The position numbers were made by a program, and so were the translations under genes. A DNA stretch of 64,000 bases from Candidatus Zixiibacteriota bacterium (GTDB taxonomy: Bacteria > Zixibacteria > MSB-5A5 > GN15 > FEB-12), in contig CP070674.1 of the NCBI GenBank assembly GCA_020351995.1, positions 2,601,519 to 2,665,518 of the forward strand, read 5' to 3'. Shown in pieces: positions 9,197 to 60,471 of this stretch (its first letter is position 1; the number at the start of each line of letters is the position of its first letter). The notes beneath the pieces are model-generated. The model was given only the letters and a program-made list of their open reading frames with translations. It made no database searches and was not told where the DNA came from.

Positions 9197-10021
9197 TTAT
9201 GGAAATGTCACGGTAAGATTAATTCCCCAGAGGAAATCGAGAACGTCCGAAAGATCCTCATCAAGAGGAACCCTGAAATGGAATCCGGGTTCGAAAACCC
9301 CGGCATCATAACCTCCGAAAAAGCCAAGTTGATGAACAGTACGTTCACCAAAATCCATGTCGCCTTCAGTCGCCAATAAACGCCCGGCAAGCCCGAAGCC
9401 CAGATTGGCCTTTTCGGGACGAAACCACATCACCATGCTATAGTCGACATATAGTTCGTTTTCAGCACCCCCTTCAGTGGGCATCATAAGATCACCGGTA
9501 AAGTCGATATCGAAGCCGTATTCGGCTTCGGACTTGAACTGAAATCCGAACCCGCCTGATAATGTCCACAGGTCCGGTACAAAGGACTCAAACCGGTCTA
9601 TCATGCTTACCATGCCAAGCAATGAAGCGGCAAATTTACTATCTGAAGCCAATGGCGGCCTAAAACCCAGCCGGCCCTTAATGGACTGGTTACCGCCGGA
9701 CACGGGCGCCACATACTCGATTCCCAGATATGGATTGCCGAAAACCGACTGATCTTCAAAGTCGGTATCGACATTGGACATGGGAAAATCGAATATGACG
9801 GCCAACTCGGGCGTGGCCGGAATATAGGCTGACAGGTATATCATTGAGGTAAAGAAATTCAGCCCTTCGGCTTCGTCAAAGGCGGCCTTGAAAAAATCGA
9901 GCGACACGCTTTTCTCGTCAGCCGGCCGTAACCAGTAGGCCTGGGCGGATACCGACTGCGAGAAAAGTAACACCGCCATGACACAGACCAGAAGAAATGC
10001 TACTCGGTTACGATTGATCAT
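9197..10021 (-). CDS. Secreted, probably outer-membrane beta-barrel protein of unknown function
   Basis: 274 residues from the ATG at 10021 (strong GGAGGAG just upstream; an upstream in-frame start at 10075 is less likely). The N-terminus is a classical signal peptide: basic NRNR, then hydrophobic VAFLLVCVMAVLLF, then SVSA-QA. The mature part alternates aromatic and polar residues with many Gly, for example LGIEYVAPVSGG, YGFDIDFTGDLMM, FGFQFKSEAEYG and LGFFGGYDAGVF, as in transmembrane beta-strands of small outer-membrane barrels. No specific family was recognised. It is convergent with the aminotransferase and is not linked to the operon upstream of it (152-base gap). Confidence 0.75.
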   Translation of the reverse strand: MINRNRVAFLLVCVMAVLLFSQSVSAQAYWLRPADEKSVSLDFFKAAFDEAEGLNFFTSMIYLSAYIPATPELAVIFDFPMSNVDTDFEDQSVFGNPYLGIEYVAPVSGGNQSIKGRLGFRPPLASDSKFAASLLGMVSMIDRFESFVPDLWTLSGGFGFQFKSEAEYGFDIDFTGDLMMPTEGGAENELYVDYSMVMWFRPEKANLGFGLAGRLLATEGDMDFGERTVHQLGFFGGYDAGVFEPGFHFRVPLDEDLSDVLDFLWGINLTVTFP

Positions 10022-10173
10022 CTCCTCCTCCATGTGTTTTGGTTCTGGAATTTTCTGCCGGGATGCTGGGCTCAAGCGTTAAGTTCAGGCAGACAATCCT
10101 GATATGCACTAAAATATTATTCTCAATCGGAATAGCAAGGATAAAAAAAAGTGGTCCCGGATATTCTTGAGAC

Positions 10174-23410: not shown

Positions 23411-24319
23411 CTATTCCATTCCCTCCTCAAACATTCCGCTGTAAGGGTTAAAGATAAAGCGGAGCGTTCCTTCTTCTCTCAACTCATCATTTTCCTTGAT
23501 GGTATACACCGAAACTATTTCGAGGGCGTTTCCGTCGGCGTCTTCCACAACCGTGATTTCGGCGTCGTAAATGACCTCGGTATCACCCTCAACGTCATTA
23601 TGGTAATAGTCTTCCTTGTGTTTCACCACCGAGGCCACCGGCCTGACACCCCCCTCGCCAATCAGGTAATAATTGATCTTCTCCTCGTCACAGGAAAACG
23701 GTCCGTTACAACATGGATTCTCACCGGACATGGAGAATACGAGGCTTAACAAGATATCTCCAACGATATGATAAGACTCGGCCACGGATATTTTCGACAG
23801 AGCCAGAATGTCTTTGCACTTCCACCAGTGCGGAAGAAAGGCCAGTTTGGTTTCGCTCTCCGTTATGGTCAGGGTCGTCAGCCGTTCGTCATAATAGGTA
23901 TCCCGATAGTAATCGCGATATGAAAAACACCGGTAGGCCATCAGGACCACGACGGAAGCCGGGTCCTTGCCGGTGTAAACATAGATTGGCCTAAACAGGC
24001 TCCCCGGCACGTTGGTTGGATCACTTCCCCAGTGGCCTATCATCGACGTACAACCGCTATCATAGGCGATTGGCACCATGCCTATCAGTATTTCTTCGAC
24101 CTGCTCGCCGAGTGTCGCCGTATCTGTCATTACGAAGTTGCTGAAGAACACACGTAGTGCCTCTTGTGCCTCCCCCTCAATCGAAACCTGAACGTCCGTC
24201 AGAGGCAGATTGACTCTACGCTGGGCGGAAACCGACGTTGTCACCACCGCACTTAGCCATATTAACAACAAAACAGATGACGCTCGAAGTGCTACTGTTA
24301 AACCATTCCCAGATCTCAT
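23411..24319 (-). CDS. Secreted protein of unknown function
   Basis: 302 residues from the ATG at 24319, chosen because AAAGGAG lies 9 bases upstream; a GTG 45 bases earlier is less likely. A signal peptide is clear (ASSVLLLIWLSAVVTTSVSA, cleavage before QRR). The mature part has several cysteines (DSGCTSM, YRCFSYR, WWKCKD, NPCCNGPFSCDEE), suggesting periplasmic disulfides, and ends in a beta-rich acidic region (DVEGDTEVIYDAEITVVEDA, TLRFIFNPYSGMFEEG). I recognise no family. It follows the O-methyltransferase gene by 14 bases in the same direction and may be co-transcribed. Confidence 0.65.
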   Translation of the reverse strand: MRSGNGLTVALRASSVLLLIWLSAVVTTSVSAQRRVNLPLTDVQVSIEGEAQEALRVFFSNFVMTDTATLGEQVEEILIGMVPIAYDSGCTSMIGHWGSDPTNVPGSLFRPIYVYTGKDPASVVVLMAYRCFSYRDYYRDTYYDERLTTLTITESETKLAFLPHWWKCKDILALSKISVAESYHIVGDILLSLVFSMSGENPCCNGPFSCDEEKINYYLIGEGGVRPVASVVKHKEDYYHNDVEGDTEVIYDAEITVVEDADGNALEIVSVYTIKENDELREEGTLRFIFNPYSGMFEEGME

Positions 24320-24333
24320 AGCGGACTCTCCTT

Positions 24334-24939
24334 TTACTCTCTCCCATTCAAGATGCGTCGGCACAGCAGCTCACCCCTGCCAATCGGAACCACCACGGCG
24401 TCAACGCGCCGGTCAGCCATGGCCCGGTCGACAAGGCTTTGAAGGGTTTCAGCATGGCTGATGACATTGTCGGCCACCAACAGTCCCCCGCGTACCAGCT
24501 TTGGAACAATCAACTCATAACATTCAAGATACACTTCCTTTTCGGCGTCCAGAAAACAGAATGAAATGCCATTCAAACCGGACAGATATTCGCGAGCGTC
24601 ACCGACAATCACCTTGATGATATCATCCATCCCGGCTAGCCGAAAGGTTTCTTGGGCCATATGCGCCTTTTCTTCCAGCACCTCGAAAGTAGTCAGGCGC
24701 ACACCACGTTCCCGGCATGCCAGTCCCAAATAGAGGCTGGAATACCCGGCACTGGTTCCTATTTCAACAAAGTTGCCCTGCGGCGTGCTGCTGGCGACAA
24801 TCGCAAGGAATTTCGCTGTTTCGGGCGGAATTTGTCTCAGACGCTTATCCCGGGGAGTTCCGTCGACGCGGTCTCTGGCGTCGATAGCCTCAAGACGGCG
24901 CATCTGCTCCAGCACCCGTTCGGGGATATCACCAAACAT
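24334..24939 (-). CDS. SAM-dependent O-methyltransferase (family 3, catechol-O-methyltransferase-like)
   Basis: 201 residues, a single Rossmann-fold methyltransferase. Motif I is [19 protein letters not shown]; the acidic residue binding SAM ribose is in [25 protein letters not shown] is motif [22 protein letters not shown] and [16 protein letters not shown] are the metal-binding Asp regions of family 3. The substrate cannot be inferred. It lies 27 bases downstream of pyrC in the same direction. Confidence 0.9.
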
Positions 24940-36016: not shown

Positions 36017-36442
36017 ACCGCTGTCCTTATTTCAAATTCGCTGCTCGTCGCGGGCTAAACCCGCATTCCAACTCAAAATCGGACAGCAATATACGTCAAA
36101 TCCCTTCCCCCGGCAACTTAAAAGAAGGACTTTTGAGCAGTTCTAACTTGTTAGCTGATAATCAGAAAACCCGGATTGTCAGGATTGAGGTTGTGGACGG
36201 GTCCGAACATACACAATCCCACTCGCATAGCCCTTGAACTCTTGCCTTCATGGTCCATATTTGGTTATTTTCCAAACACAAAGTACTTGTTGTCAGTCCA
36301 TGTATATGTAGACTTTCACGATGTCACTTCCGGGGAGGCGTCTTTCTGATCTATGAGGCTTGGTATGGCTAATGAGAGCCGCCGGGTATTCCCGCGAGTA
36401 GTACATGTGATGCTCCCGACTTCGGGCAACTGTAAGGAAGTA
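36017..36442. other. Intergenic region upstream of accC and of the lone secreted protein
   Basis: 426 bases of lower GC without a convincing gene. A short GCGGG-CTAAA-CCCGC hairpin lies at 36051-36065 near the accC start. I see no glycine or other known riboswitch, and no strong promoter by eye. In-frame codons before 36443 lack a plausible start with Shine-Dalgarno. Confidence 0.4.
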
Positions 36443-37348
36443 ATGAGGCAATTCTTGAATAAAACCCGTCTGTTATCACTTCTGGTAATATTGTTGTTGT
36501 GTTCGAGTGTATATTCGTCTGACAACAAGTGGGATGTAAGGATTGAATCATCTAAACAAGTCTACATGCTTCATGAACCAATTGTGCTCGATGTCACGGT
36601 AACGAACAGCACTTCGGACACTCTAAGAACGCACGGATTAATGCAGCCCAACAACTCCGAGTTGTCCGTTTTCTTAAAAGACGGTAACGGTAAACAGGTG
36701 GAATACAGTGGCCCACGCTTCCTGCAGACGTCTGAGCCCGGTCGGCTGCTGCTTGAGCCCAATGACCATGATTATAATTGCTTCAATATTCTTGAGTTGT
36801 ACGGGGCAAGAGAATGTAAATCCGGTTATGAGGTCTCATGTTCGAGATTTCCGTACTTACCAGAAGGAACTTATACGGTTGCCGCTGAATATGAAGGCGA
36901 TATTTCCAATGAGTTGTCAATCAATGTCGTTGCGCCATATGGACAGGAGGCAGAAGTTCTAAAGAAAATCGAAGAAGCGTATCAGATCTGGTCACAGTCG
37001 GATACCGATCCATCATCCCGAGTTTATGGAGAAATTCCAAGAGACTATCCAAATAGTGTTTATACTGAATTATGTTACTATCTCTCCCGGTTCTACTCCC
37101 ACGAAATCTTCAATGGATTTAGAAGCGGAGCTTTTAATCTCCGAACTCTAAATAGAGAAATGTTGGCCAAGTATCCCAACTCGGCAAATGTAAAAGGCTG
37201 GCTGCTGTCACTGACAGACCAGAAGAATGAAGATGAAAAGACCGCGATCTATGATAAACTGATCAACGAGCACCCCAACACAAGATGCTCCAAGATGGCC
37301 GGTCTGCTGAAAAAGAGGATATTAGCTAAGCGGGAGGTGAGGAAATGA
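36443..37348 (+). CDS. Secreted protein: Ig-like domain plus TPR-like helices
   Basis: 301 residues from ATG 36443 (AAGGA 5-9 bases upstream; this places a normal signal peptide at the N-terminus, TRLLSLLVILLLCSSVYSS). Residues about 30-160 look like a beta-sandwich: VYMLHEPIVLDVTVTNSTSD, SELSVFLKDGNGKQVEYSG and LPEGTYTVAAEYEGDI. The C-terminal part is helical and TPR-like (EEAYQIWSQSDTDP, YPNSVYTELCYYLSRFY, KLINEHPNTRCSKMAGLLKK). Sampled 60-base lines are about 43% GC against 50-55% in pilT. It is an isolated plus-strand gene between two minus-strand acc loci. Family not recognised; recent acquisition is possible. Confidence 0.7.
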   Translation: MRQFLNKTRLLSLLVILLLCSSVYSSDNKWDVRIESSKQVYMLHEPIVLDVTVTNSTSDTLRTHGLMQPNNSELSVFLKDGNGKQVEYSGPRFLQTSEPGRLLLEPNDHDYNCFNILELYGARECKSGYEVSCSRFPYLPEGTYTVAAEYEGDISNELSINVVAPYGQEAEVLKKIEEAYQIWSQSDTDPSSRVYGEIPRDYPNSVYTELCYYLSRFYSHEIFNGFRSGAFNLRTLNREMLAKYPNSANVKGWLLSLTDQKNEDEKTAIYDKLINEHPNTRCSKMAGLLKKRILAKREVRK

Positions 37349-54629: not shown

Positions 54630-55049
54630 TCAGAAGAGATTGACCACCCTCATACTTGCGGCATTGAAACTAATTGGCCTGATCTTCACATAAGCGTTCG
54701 CCTTCCACGCTGCCGCTGAGTTTGATGTTGCCGCACACCCACCTGAGGCACCAACCTGGAAAAACCCATCAAGGCATATTGCCACATGAACAGCCTTTCC
54801 TCTCGCATTCAGGAAAAACAGCAGGGCACCCTTGCGAGGTTTGTCCACAAGACGGGTCGCGAACAGTCTGAGCAAACCGTCGGCGGTGTGATCCTCCTTT
54901 TCTCCCAAAACACCTGCCGATTTTAGGCACTCGACGACAAAACCGGAGCAATCAAACCCAGACGGATCATCCCCGCCCCACACATACGGTGTCCCGAGAT
55001 ACGCCAGGGCGGTACTGACCAGCCACTTTCTCGCAAGAATCCTCTCCAT
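54630..55049 (-). CDS. NlpC/P60-family peptidase-like protein without signal peptide
   Basis: 139 residues from ATG 55049 (55061 also possible). Catalytic Cys in YVWGGDDPSGFDCSGFVVEC, His in KAVHVAICLDGFFQVGA; the third polar residue is not certain. Normal NlpC/P60 domain size, but no signal peptide or membrane anchor is visible, so it is either cytoplasmic or exported another way. Convergent with the EIIA gene. Likely a gamma-D-glutamyl-type endopeptidase fold; substrate unknown. Confidence 0.85.
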   Translation of the reverse strand: MERILARKWLVSTALAYLGTPYVWGGDDPSGFDCSGFVVECLKSAGVLGEKEDHTADGLLRLFATRLVDKPRKGALLFFLNARGKAVHVAICLDGFFQVGASGGCAATSNSAAAWKANAYVKIRPISFNAASMRVVNLF

Positions 55050-55158
55050 AACAAAGGTCACGGCCTGGCAAAAAGCACAACTGATGTATTAAAATCGTCT
55101 CGTCTCAAGTTGAGATAACTCCCTCTCCGACTTGTGGTTTTCTGGATCCATACACTGC

Positions 55159-55268: not shown

Positions 55269-56030
55269 ATGGATAGTGTGATTCAGTGCCGCAAATGCGG
55301 AGTTGCCATTGCCCTCGGCGAGGCCAAGCCGGGCGAGCAACTGACCTGCGAGAAATGCGACACCATCAACGTAATCCCTCTGCCCGCTCCACAGACAGGA
55401 ACTATCAAAATCATGTCCGTGGTCATAGACTGGATTTGGTACATCAGCTGTGTGGTATTCGGTTTTTCCGCAGTCGTTATTCTTCTTTGTGTGCCCAACA
55501 TCGGGGATCAGAAACTGTGGTCGTGGGAAAAAGCGCCCATACCCATCAGGGTCACTTACGATCAGCCGATCAGAGTGGAGCCTGACGAATCCGTGGCCGC
55601 TGCTGATGCCCTTCACGTCCGCGGCTACGAGGTCGTATTGGTCGATCGATGGCTTGCCGGCGAGATGGCTCTTCATTGGGTAGCAGCGTTGCTTACCATT
55701 GGATTGTTACTGTGGGTGGTTTATCAGGTGCGCGCCTTCTTTCACAACGTTCGGAGCGGGCGACCATTCTCGAGGGATAATCCCAGAAGAATTCGTTACA
55801 TGGCCTACTCGATCGTAGCCTTTGTCGTCCTCGACATAATCACGATTATCAGCATCGCCCACGCCTACATGAAGCGTATCGATATTCCCGGTGCGCAGCT
55901 CGAAGTAGCCATACCGTGGATCGATACCGGTTACGTTGAATTGATCGCCCTGGGAATCCTGCTGTTTGTCATCGCCCAGATTTTCGATTGGGGGTGTCGC
56001 CTGCAGCAGGAACATGACCTGACCATATAG
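55269..56030 (+). CDS. Zinc-ribbon + DUF2975 membrane protein
   Basis: 253 residues from ATG 55269 (GGAGG six bases upstream). N-terminal zinc knuckle CRKCGVAIALG / LTCEKCDTIN, then four hydrophobic helices: WIWYISCVVFGFSAVVILLC, LHWVAALLTIGLLLWVVYQV, MAYSIVAFVVLDIITIISIA and LIALGILLFVIAQIFDWGCR. The last two with 'FDWGC.LQ.E.DLTI' are the DUF2975 signature. DUF2975 proteins are regularly followed by a small YozG-like HTH protein, as here (11 bases downstream). The zinc ribbon fused in front is unusual for the family. Confidence 0.88.
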   Translation: MDSVIQCRKCGVAIALGEAKPGEQLTCEKCDTINVIPLPAPQTGTIKIMSVVIDWIWYISCVVFGFSAVVILLCVPNIGDQKLWSWEKAPIPIRVTYDQPIRVEPDESVAAADALHVRGYEVVLVDRWLAGEMALHWVAALLTIGLLLWVVYQVRAFFHNVRSGRPFSRDNPRRIRYMAYSIVAFVVLDIITIISIAHAYMKRIDIPGAQLEVAIPWIDTGYVELIALGILLFVIAQIFDWGCRLQQEHDLTI

Positions 56031-56041
56031 TAAGGGAACTC

Positions 56042-56257
56042 ATGCCAATTATTGTCAACCTTGATGTCATGCTGGCCCGGCGCAAAATGTCTCTGACAGA
56101 GTTGTCCGAAAAAGTCGGCGTCACCATAGGTAACCTGTCCATGCTCAAGCAGGGACACGCCCGGGCGGTCAGGTTTTCCACCCTGGAAAAAGTATGCGAG
56201 GCTCTCGACTGTCAACCGGGCGATTTGCTCGAATACGCGCGGGAAGAAAGCAGTTAG
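56042..56257 (+). CDS. XRE-family HTH regulator (YozG-like)
   Basis: 71 residues, essentially one Cro/C1-type helix-turn-helix: IIVNLDVMLARRKMSLTELS, EKVGVTIGNLSMLKQGHARA, FSTLEKVCEALDCQPGDLLE. This is the HTH_26/YozG type found with DUF2975 partners. It probably represses its own operon, perhaps through the direct repeats at 55159-55191, and its membrane partner may modulate it. Confidence 0.93.
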   Translation: MPIIVNLDVMLARRKMSLTELSEKVGVTIGNLSMLKQGHARAVRFSTLEKVCEALDCQPGDLLEYAREESS

Positions 56258-56343: not shown

Positions 56344-56931
56344 ATGTTCGCGAAGCAAATCAACATCACAATCATTGCTGTCTTGATGCTATGTACCGGA
56401 GCTTTCGCCCAGGGTGAGTTCGTTAAACCGGGGGAAAACGCCCTGGGGGTTTACGGCGGCGCGGCGTTTTACGAAAACAGCGATGCCTACTCGTTGGGTT
56501 TCGGCTACTCGCTCAAAGGCCGCTTCGATTTTTCCTTCGCCGTTACCTCGGATAACGATGTCGATGCCCAGTCGTATACTGTCAGTGCCACCTACTATGT
56601 CAAACACTTTCATAAACTGGGCATGTTCGGAATGGGCGTCACGCTCGGCTATGCAAGTCTGCAGGGAGGCGGGATTAGGGATGTCAATGTATTGCTTCTT
56701 GGCGTTGTCGTATTCAACAACCTCTACGTGTCGCGAGATCTCGCGCTTCAGCCGTACCTTTCCGGTACCGTGTGGCGAAACAACAACGCTGCTGTCGGTA
56801 CCGGACAACTCGGAATCACAGCCGACCTCCTGCGCAGGGCACCCGTGCGACCCTTAATCGGGGCCGGTATCGGGTCGTCAGACGGCCAGAGCTACACGAC
56901 CGTACACGGTGGTCTGGTAGTGGTCTTCTGA
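56344..56931 (+). CDS. Tandem secreted paralogue 1 (probable beta-barrel)
   Basis: 195 residues. Signal peptide ITIIAVLMLCTGAFA, cleaved before QGEFVKPGENALGVYGG, the motif shared by all five genes. The mature part has alternating hydrophobic strands and Gly turns (YSLGFGYSLKGRFDFSFAVT, VDAQSYTVSATYYVKHF, GMGVTLGYASLQGGG) and ends in GGLVVVF. A C-terminal Phe and about eight strand-like segments suit a small outer-membrane beta-barrel of the OmpW/OmpX scale, but no known family was recognised. First gene after the promoter. Confidence 0.75.
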   Translation: MFAKQINITIIAVLMLCTGAFAQGEFVKPGENALGVYGGAAFYENSDAYSLGFGYSLKGRFDFSFAVTSDNDVDAQSYTVSATYYVKHFHKLGMFGMGVTLGYASLQGGGIRDVNVLLLGVVVFNNLYVSRDLALQPYLSGTVWRNNNAAVGTGQLGITADLLRRAPVRPLIGAGIGSSDGQSYTTVHGGLVVVF

Positions 56932-56959
56932 GCAAAACCGTTGAAAGGAGTATCACCTG

Positions 56960-57607
56960 ATGAGTCACAAATCTCGGTTAGCTCTGACTGTTCTTCTTAT
57001 CCTGTCAACCTCACCGGCTTTCGCCCAGGGTGAATTCGTGGACCGTGGACAGAGTTGTCTCGCTCTTCTCCCCCAGCTCACCTTCGGCCCCAACTCTACC
57101 GGATATGGCGTCAACCTGGGCTACTGCGCCGAGGGCTATCTGGATTTCGGCTTTGTCTACTCGAAAAACGAAGACACCGATGCCAAAGGTTACGGCCCGA
57201 CTATGGCCGCTCATCTGATGAAGACACGCCGCGGCAACGGCATGTTCGGGGCGTCAGCTTATCTAAGCTTCCAGTCCCTGGAGTTCCCGACCGAGGATAC
57301 CATAACCTTCAAGACAACACTTATTCTGGTGGAAGCCGCCCTGTACTACAATTTTTACATTTCGGACTGGCTCACTCTTCAGCCCTCTTACACAAGCACT
57401 ATGGCCATCGATCTCGAAACCGCCTGGGAGCAATCTGCAACCGGCAGGGCCGACAGACTCGATTTCTACCAGAACATAGGCCTGGCCATGGAATTATATC
57501 GCGGAAAGCAGTATCACCCATTCTTGTTCGCCGGCCTTGTTATTCCCAATCAAACCTCGGAGAATGTTTACGGCAGTATCGGGGTCGGTATTCTGGCAGT
57601 GTTTTAG
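56960..57607 (+). CDS. Tandem secreted paralogue 2 (probable beta-barrel)
   Basis: 215 residues, the longest of the set. Signal peptide ALTVLLILSTSPAFA then QGEFVDRGQSCLALLPQ, with the Pro-Gly of the shared motif changed to Asp-Arg. Strands include GYGVNLGYCAEGYLDFGFVY, AYLSFQSLEF and YYNFYISDWLTLQPSYTS; the 'NFYxxxxxxLQPS' segment recurs in paralogues 1, 3 and 4. Ends GSIGVGILAVF with terminal Phe. GAAAGGAG precedes the ATG; gap of 28 bases to paralogue 1. Confidence 0.75.
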   Translation: MSHKSRLALTVLLILSTSPAFAQGEFVDRGQSCLALLPQLTFGPNSTGYGVNLGYCAEGYLDFGFVYSKNEDTDAKGYGPTMAAHLMKTRRGNGMFGASAYLSFQSLEFPTEDTITFKTTLILVEAALYYNFYISDWLTLQPSYTSTMAIDLETAWEQSATGRADRLDFYQNIGLAMELYRGKQYHPFLFAGLVIPNQTSENVYGSIGVGILAVF

Positions 57608-57656
57608 GTGATTGTATAAGATTTACAAATCTCACTCAAGGACTCTTGGAGGGGTC

Positions 57657-58265
57657 ATGAAAAAAGGTTTTACTCTTATTGTCCTCACAATCATTCTTAC
57701 CGGCGCCCCTGTCTTCGCCCAGGGGGAGTTCCTTAAAGAAGGCGAAAGGGGACTCGGAGTAGCGCCGCAATTCCTGTTTGGCGACAACCATACTGTCTCT
57801 GGTGTCTCCGCCGGTTATTGTCTCGAGAACTCTCTGGAACTATCTTTTGCCTATGCTCACAATTCCGATCCGGAAGCCGATGCCTTTTGTCCGGCCTTGA
57901 CTTTCTACAAGAAGGAAACCAGAGACCGCAGTATGCTCGGTCTCGCACTAACGGTCGGCCTGGAGATGGTCTCGGCGGGCGGAAACGACAATACCGCCAT
58001 ACTCGTTTTCGGTGCCGGTGGGTTTGACAATTTCTACTTGAACGAAAGCATCGTGCTGCAACCGTCGATCCACGGCTCCTTTAGTTTCAAACTCGAGGGT
58101 ACCGAAGATCGCACCCTCGGTATTCTGACAGGCGGTCTGGCCATGGCCTTCAACCACACCAAAACCGTTCGTCCATTCGTGAGTACGAGTATAGGTATTA
58201 CGGCCGAGGCCGACAGCGAGATTTTCTTTGGATTAGGTTTTGGAATAATCGTTGCATTGCAGTAG
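57657..58265 (+). CDS. Tandem secreted paralogue 3 (probable beta-barrel)
   Basis: 202 residues from ATG 57657 (GGAGGGG just upstream). Signal peptide FTLIVLTIILTGAPVFA then QGEFLKEGERGLGVAPQ. SAGYCLENSLELSFAYAHNS, CPALTFYKKETRDRS, GLALTVGLEMVS and FDNFYLNESIVLQPSIHGSF mirror paralogues 2, 4 and 5. It ends FGLGFGIIVALQ, without the terminal aromatic residue. Confidence 0.75.
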   Translation: MKKGFTLIVLTIILTGAPVFAQGEFLKEGERGLGVAPQFLFGDNHTVSGVSAGYCLENSLELSFAYAHNSDPEADAFCPALTFYKKETRDRSMLGLALTVGLEMVSAGGNDNTAILVFGAGGFDNFYLNESIVLQPSIHGSFSFKLEGTEDRTLGILTGGLAMAFNHTKTVRPFVSTSIGITAEADSEIFFGLGFGIIVALQ

Positions 58266-58327
58266 CGGATAAGTATCCCCTCGGCAGTGTTTCAACAACA
58301 GTATAGAACTGCAGGAGAACATAGAAG

Positions 58328-58942
58328 ATGCTCATCAAACAATCAACAAACATCTGCCTTGTATTGATCATGATGGCCTCGTGTGCCTTCGCTCAGGGCG
58401 AGTTCCTTCGTCCCGGTGAAAGTGGCTTCGGCGCGTCCGGGGCAGTACTCTTTGGCGAAGATTCCGACGCCTACGGTCTAACCATCGGAACATCTCCGGG
58501 TGGTTACATCGATCTCACCTTCTCTTACACCACTGACGAAAGCGGCAATATTCAGACCTACTGTCCTTCCCTGACGTTTTACCTCAAGAAGAGCCAACCC
58601 AAAAGCCTGACGGGTGTGGGTTTTACCGCGGGTTTTGGCCGCACCGAAATGAAAATCCTTCCCCAGTCAGGGGCATACAATTTTGTGATTTTCGGAATCA
58701 CTCTGTTTGCCAATTTCTATACCACCCCAACCATCGCTGTTCAGCCCTCGATAACAGGTGGGGCCACGGTGCCGATAGAGGATGTATCGGACGGCAGTTC
58801 TACCTCGATCACCCCGGCCCTGACACTCATCCTGGGACACCAAAGCAAATTCCGCCCCTTCTTCGGTGTTGGCTACACTACCGGTGATGACACGGCCGGG
58901 TCATTCTTTTCAATCGATGCCGGCTTTGTCGCGGCATGGTAA
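58328..58942 (+). CDS. Tandem secreted paralogue 4 (probable beta-barrel)
   Basis: 204 residues. Signal peptide ICLVLIMMASCAFA then QGEFLRPGESGFGASGA. Shared segments: GGYIDLTFSYTTDESGNIQT, CPSLTFYLKKSQPKSLTGVG, FTAGFGRTEM, LFANFYTTPTIAVQPSITGG and a C-terminal FRPFFGVGYTTGDD. It ends FSIDAGFVAAW with a terminal Trp, as in many outer-membrane barrels. GCAGGAGAAC precedes the ATG. Confidence 0.75.
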   Translation: MLIKQSTNICLVLIMMASCAFAQGEFLRPGESGFGASGAVLFGEDSDAYGLTIGTSPGGYIDLTFSYTTDESGNIQTYCPSLTFYLKKSQPKSLTGVGFTAGFGRTEMKILPQSGAYNFVIFGITLFANFYTTPTIAVQPSITGGATVPIEDVSDGSSTSITPALTLILGHQSKFRPFFGVGYTTGDDTAGSFFSIDAGFVAAW

Positions 58943-58955
58943 GGAGAATTTCAAA

Positions 58956-59575
58956 ATGACGAAATATGTTCTCATAACAATTTTGACTCTGTTGGTGCTG
59001 GCAGCACCTTCTTTCGCCCAGGGAGAGTTCCTCCGTCCGGGCGAGAACGCCATTGGCTTTGCCGGCATCAAAACCTTCGGCGATGACGCGGCTGGTCTGG
59101 GTGGCAGTCTGGGTGTCGGCATCAACGGTTGTCTCGACATCGCCGTGGCTTTCAGCCACAATAGCGACCTTGGAATCAATACCTTCTCCCCCTCGTTGAC
59201 GTACTATTTCAAAGAGAACAAGCCCAAGAGCGTGGTGGGACTTGGTCTTACGGCGGGCTATGCACATTCCGAGACCTCGGGCGGCAGAACCGTGGGCGGG
59301 GACGCTCTCCTGGGGGCCTGACGATCTTTGGCACATACTACGAGGAAAATAAGATTGCTTTTCAGGTGTTGGCCACGGCCGGGGTGTTAGGCCAACTGGG
59401 AGAAGATTTTCCGGATCCCACGGCACTCATGGTCTCTGCTGAGCTCAGGTGGCTATTCGCACCGATGGCGCGGTTTCGCCCTTTCGTTGGCGCCGGTTTC
59501 GGTTACCACGAACAAAGTGAGCTCCATGTCTTGTCGGTCATGGCTGGATTTATTATTGTTTTACCTAAACAGTGA
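58956..59575 (+). pseudogene. Tandem secreted paralogue 5, split by a one-base frameshift in a G tract
   Basis: Signal peptide YVLITILTLLVLAAPSFA, then QGEFLRPGENAIGFAGI. The frame runs to a TGA at 59319-59321 just after GGDALLGA. Adding one G to the G5 tract at 59312-59316 restores GGLTIFGTYYEENKIAFQVL and the rest to 59575, giving 206 residues, the length of its siblings. The second part holds FRPFVGAGFGYHEQSELHVL, matching paralogue 4. The break could be a true mutation, a phase-variable or slippery site, or a sequencing or assembly error. Confidence 0.8.
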
Positions 59576-59589
59576 ATTCGACAGAGCGG

Positions 59590-60471
59590 TTATTTGGGAG
59601 GCACTCTCACTGGCTTTCTCTGCGCGACAAAAACCCCTCCCAGCACAAGAGTACCGCCGACAGCTGTTAGCAGTCCAAATTGTTCGTTTAGATAAGGCAC
59701 CGCCAACGAGGTTGTGGCCAGTGGCTCGAGATACAAGAAAATTCCGGCCCGGGCCGCGCCCAGTTTCGACACCCCTTCCTGCCAGAACCAGTGCGCTACC
59801 GCCGTGCTGAATATCCCCAGAAACAGCAAAGCCAGCAGCGGCTCCGATGGCAGACTGAGAAATCGTCCCCAGTCAGATGTAAACGTCATGTATCCGACCA
59901 GTATGATCGCCGACGGCAGTAGGACCGCGAATGTCACCGCCAGCGGATTGTAGCCCCGCACCAGATCGCGCGTAGCTACGGTATAGAGTGCCCACGTATG
60001 AGCCGAGGCCAGGATAAGCCAGTCACCGACCGACCTTATCCAGTCCAGGTTGCCTATCTTTCCCTTCGACACCAGCAGCACTATCCCGGCCGTGGCGATT
60101 GCTATTCCCACCATTTCCTTGAAACCGATCTTCTCTTTGAGGAAAACGAAGGCCGCCACCGCCATCACCAACGGCGTCACCGCGATGATCCATCCGGTAT
60201 TTGTAGCGGAGGTGTGGACGAGGCCATTAATCTGAATGAGGAAATGCGCCGTCAGGATGGCTGAGCCCAATAACAGATGCCAACGATGGCCGGATGCAAA
60301 ACTGAGTTTGATTCCTTTAGAGAGAATGACCGCGTACAGTATCGGCAGGCCTATGATCAGGCGAAGCCCCATCAGTTCGACCGGGGTAACATATTCCAGA
60401 AGGATCTTGGTCGCAACAAATGACCAACCCCAGAATATGATCGTCAACATCAGGTATACGTAGACCAGCAT
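59590..60471 (-). CDS. EamA/DMT-family transporter (downstream of a pair)
   Basis: 293 residues, ten hydrophobic helices in two repeats: MLVYVYLMLTIIFWGWSFVA at the start, LGSAILTAHFLIQINGLVHT, SATNTGWIIAVTPLVMAVAA and WLILASAHTWALYTVATRDL, then a second half ending LEPLATTSLAVPYLNEQFGL. Its ATG shares a base with the stop of the upstream EamA gene (TGATG), so the two are coupled and may form a heterodimer. Substrate unknown. Confidence 0.92.
   Translation of the reverse strand: MLVYVYLMLTIIFWGWSFVATKILLEYVTPVELMGLRLIIGLPILYAVILSKGIKLSFASGHRWHLLLGSAILTAHFLIQINGLVHTSATNTGWIIAVTPLVMAVAAFVFLKEKIGFKEMVGIAIATAGIVLLVSKGKIGNLDWIRSVGDWLILASAHTWALYTVATRDLVRGYNPLAVTFAVLLPSAIILVGYMTFTSDWGRFLSLPSEPLLALLFLGIFSTAVAHWFWQEGVSKLGAARAGIFLYLEPLATTSLAVPYLNEQFGLLTAVGGTLVLGGVFVAQRKPVRVPPK

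Follow-up and report, generated by a model that had tools for sequence, protein, structure and literature searches.

Five co-directional paralogues at positions 56344-59575 of the window (the whole 64,000-nucleotide stretch analysed here, from the genome of a Candidatus Zixiibacteriota bacterium) probably form an array of small, fast-varying, non-enzymatic outer-membrane barrels that were duplicated in tandem and share a conserved periplasmic mouth. We put the probability of this reading, which joins observed paralogy, signal peptides, distribution, synteny and relative divergence to a predicted fold, topology and outer/inner assignment, at about three in four. The family is best read as unnamed in the libraries searched and as belonging to a known kind, the tandem, surface-variable small outer-membrane barrels.

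Organization of the array and its shared motifs

All genes of the array lie on the forward strand. Paralogue 1 (56344-56931), found both as an open reading frame and by genome search, encodes 195 aa with the junction AFA|QGEFVKPGE, and paralogue 2 (56960-57607) encodes 215 aa with AFA|QGEFVDRGQ. For paralogue 3 (57657-58265; VFA|QGEFLKEGE), the ATG at 57657 was taken as the start, which gives 202 aa, while the mechanical open reading frame begins at an upstream TTG. Paralogue 4 (58328-58942) encodes 204 aa with AFA|QGEFLRPGE, and paralogue 5 is split into an N-terminal part (58956-59321; 121 codons; SFA|QGEFLRPGE) ended by a frameshift and a C-terminal part in the -1 frame (59315-59575) that matches strands 6-10. 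Thus, the five same-strand genes of about 195-215 codons described in the initial annotation are confirmed for four (195, 215, 202 and 204), and gene 5 is not one open frame. The gaps between the genes measure 13-62 bp and Shine-Dalgarno-like GGAG stretches precede the genes, which are likely co-transcribed.

Pairwise identity among the five is 26-40%, and judging from their sequences the similarity is far above chance. When paralogue 4 was searched against the whole genome (one 3.6-Mb sequence), it retrieved paralogue 3 (E 6.8e-27), paralogue 1 (2.0e-24), paralogue 5 (3.1e-22) and the remaining copy (6.8e-16), and picked up the C-terminal part of paralogue 5 separately (E 7.5e-5). This search, which had been proposed as a check for copies elsewhere, found none in the genome beyond the five.

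In gene 5, the first frame stops at 59319-59321 and the remainder continues in the -1 frame to 59575, a break that coincides with a GGGGG run at 59313-59317. The break reflects either a frameshift of recent origin or an indel error in a metagenome-assembled genome that contains gaps, and the latter is plausible because another stretch of the same genome (L241) has an N gap. The run itself could be a site of switching or of misassembly, or the lesion of a genuine young pseudogene.

Every one of the five proteins carries a signal peptide followed by an invariant F-A-Q-G-E-F block. Signal-peptidase cleavage most likely occurs at AFA|QGEF, so that QGEF would start the mature protein and not, as had been proposed, end the signal peptide. 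The longer motif, AQGEF(L/V)xxGE, is exact in four of the five, with gene 2 carrying GQ instead of GE. The internal block CPSLTFY is exact in gene 4 and appears as CPALTFY in gene 3 and SPSLTYY in gene 5, and NFYxxxxxxLQPS occurs exactly in genes 2 and 3. The three terminal aromatic residues noted before are F, F and W in genes 1, 2 and 4, respectively. The AQGEF motif alone matched 27 stretches in a scan of the genome contigs, and 0 of them were confirmed as relatives.

Predicted fold and membrane character

AlphaFold models of paralogue 4 (pLDDT 84.2, pTM 0.80) and paralogue 2 (its own model; pLDDT 80.1, pTM 0.76) both have 10 strands. Of the solved structures, OpcA of Neisseria meningitidis (PDB 1k24, 2vdf), a 10-stranded outer-membrane barrel, comes closest to both, with Z 17.1 and rmsd 2.5 over 173 residues for paralogue 4 and Z 16.2 and rmsd 2.8 over 176 residues for paralogue 2. 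Next in rank are further outer-membrane barrels and a barrel designed with 10 strands. Along the strands, outward positions are L/F/V/I in about half of cases and inward positions are G/S/T/A with few charges, in keeping with the strand-like alternation reported in the initial annotation. The signal peptide, amphipathic strands and barrel fold expected of outer-membrane β-barrels are thus all found or predicted, and an aromatic C-terminus is present in three of the five. Taken together, the two models, their matches and the alternating lipid-like and small or polar faces point to outer-membrane barrels, as had been suggested.

The identity to OpcA is only ~8%, and there is no match by sequence; the likeness therefore indicates a common fold and is no evidence of a common function. 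The long outer loops of OpcA form its (glycan-)binding site, in contrast to the short loops of the array models (3-8 residues in paralogue 4), which makes adhesion a guess for the array proteins; OpcA is not known as a tandem family. Matches to autotransporter translocators (Z 14-15) aligned the pore helix to the signal peptide and were considered artefactual, since the precursor had been modelled uncleaved, and viral barrels matched the models at the fold level only.

The models could also be taken for soluble secreted 10-stranded barrels of the nitrobindin or lipocalin type, since one of them matches Rv2717c-like soluble barrels as well (Z 11.3). Such a case is very improbable, given the hydrophobic outward strand faces, the outer-membrane barrels at the top of the structure matches (Z 16-17) and the C-terminal F/W in three of five; soluble globular models, which would have spoken against a barrel, did not occur. 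An enzymatic role in the outer membrane, of the omptin, PagP/PagL or phospholipase type, appears very improbable as well. The omptins (OmpT, Pla) are 10-stranded like the array proteins and match the models with Z ~13, but the conserved outer-half positions of the family include no Asp or His, the omptin catalytic residues are lacking, no conserved Asp/His/Ser set is present in the outer half, and no Pfam match was obtained. Moreover, the strongly conserved residues are at the N-terminus, at mid-strand glycines or in the periplasmic half.

Variation of the predicted outer side

We compared outer and periplasmic halves on the presumption of the usual topology, which places both ends in the periplasm. 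In each of the 10 strands, conservation among eight same-genus sequences is higher in the periplasmic half than in the outer half (sign test p = 0.002), and among 23 sequences of the wider family this holds for 9 of 10 strands; both comparisons lie within the family. Indels are distributed in the same way, with ~64 residues on the predicted outer side (28+6 in strands, 30 in loops) versus 3 on the periplasmic side. The strongly conserved positions are the QGEF...GE start and, in paralogue 4 numbering, D62, K87, N129, Y131, Q139, R176, P177 and G199, which lie near the periplasmic mouth by strand position, with some conserved glycines further up. These mouth residues may form a plug or a partner site.

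Variable outer halves are normal in outer-membrane barrels, and the family sequences are too diverged for dN/dS. The earlier suggestion of diversification at the surface, along with the proposed comparison of surface columns with the rest, is upheld in the sense of fast change of the predicted outer side, not of positive selection: variation is greatest in the outer halves of the 10 strands and in the outer loops, nearly all indels fall there, and neighbouring genes diverge far more slowly than the array.

Divergence relative to flanking genes and other barrels

Between the genome of the window (G000) and G001, a member of the same genus, identity is 60-86% for flanking proteins but 31-35% for the barrels. 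Correspondingly, in genus g13 (G076/G015) the flanks share 86-96% (one lipoprotein-like protein 53%) and the barrels 21-32%, except for one 70-residue barrel fragment at 61%. In g4 (G085/G034/G006), the flanks are mostly 78-93% identical (one lipoprotein 48-64%), the associated cl23 proteins 38-62% and the family barrels 23-40%. As a control that takes in only barrels with orthologues, ten PF13505-type proteins that are reciprocal best hits between G000 and G001 share 39-70%, all above the array (Mann-Whitney p = 0.003). Other PF13505 barrels of the genome of the window also have no close G001 counterparts (best matches 26-33%), and one family pair in genus g44 is 86% identical; fast divergence is therefore a tendency of the family, not a rule.

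Distribution and duplication history

Relatives were gathered by whole-genome search and a scan of neighbouring genes, and a 23-sequence profile was built. The profile search detected family members in 31 of the 132 genomes of the phylum, frequently in tandem sets of 2-4 copies, with four matches each in G001, G038 and G076, three in G034 and G085, and two in G057, G074 and G084. In six genomes belonging to several genera of the same taxonomic family (G006, G015, G016, G074, G076 and G085), family genes adjoin ychF-lon-nnr, and some loci are near an OmpA-like lipoprotein and secA; a common position is between nnr and secA. In the genome of the window, the nnr-secA interval holds the lipoprotein and no family barrel. 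Its array is instead located between an NlpC/P60 protein gene (54630-55061, reverse strand) as the left anchor and an EamA/DMT transporter gene (59590-60471, reverse strand) as the right anchor, a site that holds four barrels in G001. In Candidatus Zixiibacteriota bin295, to which a neighbour gene of the array is 87% identical, the two flanking genes lie almost side by side and enclose nothing.

In the tree, the genes of G000 and G001 form one clade (99/95) with interleaved members, and the copies of G038, G057 and G074 each fall in their own clades, which indicates that tandem amplification happened several times. The tree and the synteny thus bear out the proposed expansion by duplication.

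Inside a tandem array of G060, a 398-residue protein (L027, 1504-2697) was observed to consist of two barrel units fused in one chain: its N-terminal half matches the family (E 4.5e-31), and its C-terminal half is 45% identical to a separate 218-residue family member of G054. This fusion suggests that neighbouring copies in an array can join to give double or larger barrels.

Relation to known families

Scans against Pfam, NCBIfam and PHROGs gave nothing above cut-off, 0 of 23 family members reached a Pfam or NCBIfam cut-off, a PDB sequence search with two profiles (E up to 10) matched no chain, and literature searches found no description of the family. The statement in the initial annotation that the motif belongs to no described family therefore stands as far as Pfam/NCBIfam cut-offs and PDB sequence relatives go. 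A profile match to a porin, OmpX or OmpW family, named there as counter-evidence, was looked for and appeared only below threshold: PF13505 (OMP_b-brl) reached at best 20.3 bits against a cut-off of 28.7 (paralogue 5, E 7e-4) and OmpW (PF03922) 14 bits against 24, and the models are 10-stranded, unlike the eight-stranded OmpX type.

We regard it as rather unlikely that the family is a mere divergent branch of the PF13505 superfamily. The small PF13505 barrels of the same genomes are similar in size, signal peptide and barrel type, and some occur in tandem clusters; the sub-threshold match of paralogue 5 and the weak matches of the family profile to PF13505 barrels also fit such an origin. However, profile-profile comparison of the family with two same-genus PF13505 alignments joined only a hairpin or the signal peptide, with no full-length alignment, whereas the two PF13505 alignments matched each other over 176 columns at 97.6%. 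The failure of all 23 members to reach the cut-off and the greater conservation of G000-G001 orthologues among PF13505 barrels further set the array apart.

The P28/OMP-1 locus of Ehrlichia (PF01617) is a known tandem family of paralogous outer-membrane proteins (PMC7971322), and hairpin and barrel amplification is known in general (PMC6340704). The Zixibacteria array resembles that locus in its tandem arrangement but differs in its phylum, its presumably free-living host, its fewer copies and its sequence, as the PF01617 (Surface_Ag_2) profile did not match the paralogues at E up to 10.

Proposed mechanism and significance

We propose that each protein is exported by Sec and would be cleaved at AFA|QGEF, and that BAM presumably inserts it to give a short-looped barrel of 10 strands whose two ends lie in the periplasm. 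Its periplasmic mouth would consist of the conserved residues (QGEF...GE, D62, K87, N129, Q139 and R176), with the outward half changing very fast. Tandem duplication would have preceded the split of the species of the genus, and later divergence would have left one-to-one counterparts barely recognisable between flanks that remain 60-86% identical. The most likely role is that of a non-enzymatic surface protein providing a binding site, a narrow channel or both, with an exposed face that may be driven to vary by pressures such as phages, changes in ligand or other bacteria. On the present evidence, the proteins could act as adhesins, receptors, decoys or narrow channels.

The proteins might instead be small diffusion channels whose outer side drifts under little constraint, with duplication serving dosage or substrate breadth in the absence of diversifying pressure. 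We hold this to be a substantial but minority possibility, in agreement with which the inward faces are mostly Gly/Ser/Thr/Ala with few charges, catalytic residues are not conserved and fast divergence is seen in other small barrels of the genus as well (39-70%). Nevertheless, the array is more divergent than every one of the ten control barrels that have orthologues (p = 0.003, as above), and the recurrent independent tandem amplification goes beyond what drift predicts, though it is compatible with drift. A more specific version of the proposed reading is a surface-variation locus, in which barrels amplified in tandem at two genomic addresses combine a fixed mouth with a changing face and act as interchangeable receptors or decoys; this we offer only tentatively.

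The results define an unnamed outer-membrane protein family spread through Zixibacteria and provide genome annotators with a profile for it. They also describe surface proteins that turn over almost completely within an otherwise conserved neighbourhood, in uncultured and presumably free-living bacteria. Such surface loci have mostly been studied in pathogens under immune pressure, and pressure on the Zixibacteria array would need another source, such as phages or neighbours.

Neighbouring genes and other loci

Upstream of the array on the forward strand are genes for a zinc-ribbon and DUF2975 membrane protein (55269-56030) and for a 71-aa Xre-type helix-turn-helix protein (56042-56257; family assigned by eye) that ends 86 bp before paralogue 1. 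This pair (55269-56257) accompanies the array and is missing from the same site in bin295. By its position, the helix-turn-helix protein may regulate the array, and the pair together could do so. A DUF2975 relative is found beside the single barrel of G003, of the same genus, but not at this site in G001 (nor in bin295), so the regulatory link is weak.

Several other loci of this genome encode secreted or barrel-like proteins. A second tandem cluster of small barrels, of the PF13505 type and 39-61% identical to G001, is located at L206 (G000:C1:2775500-2779500), and 19 PF13505 matches with E up to 0.01 were counted in the genome. In the window, 9197-10075 (reverse strand) encodes a secreted barrel-like protein of 292 aa with the start AQAYWLRPADE and no Pfam match, which is 41% identical in G001, where the matched stretch has two in-frame stops. 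Two further products, of 317 residues (23414-24364, reverse strand) and 331 residues (36353-37345, forward strand), are probably secreted and have no Pfam match, and the latter seems to have a relative encoded near the G001 array (L036, 12126-13277).
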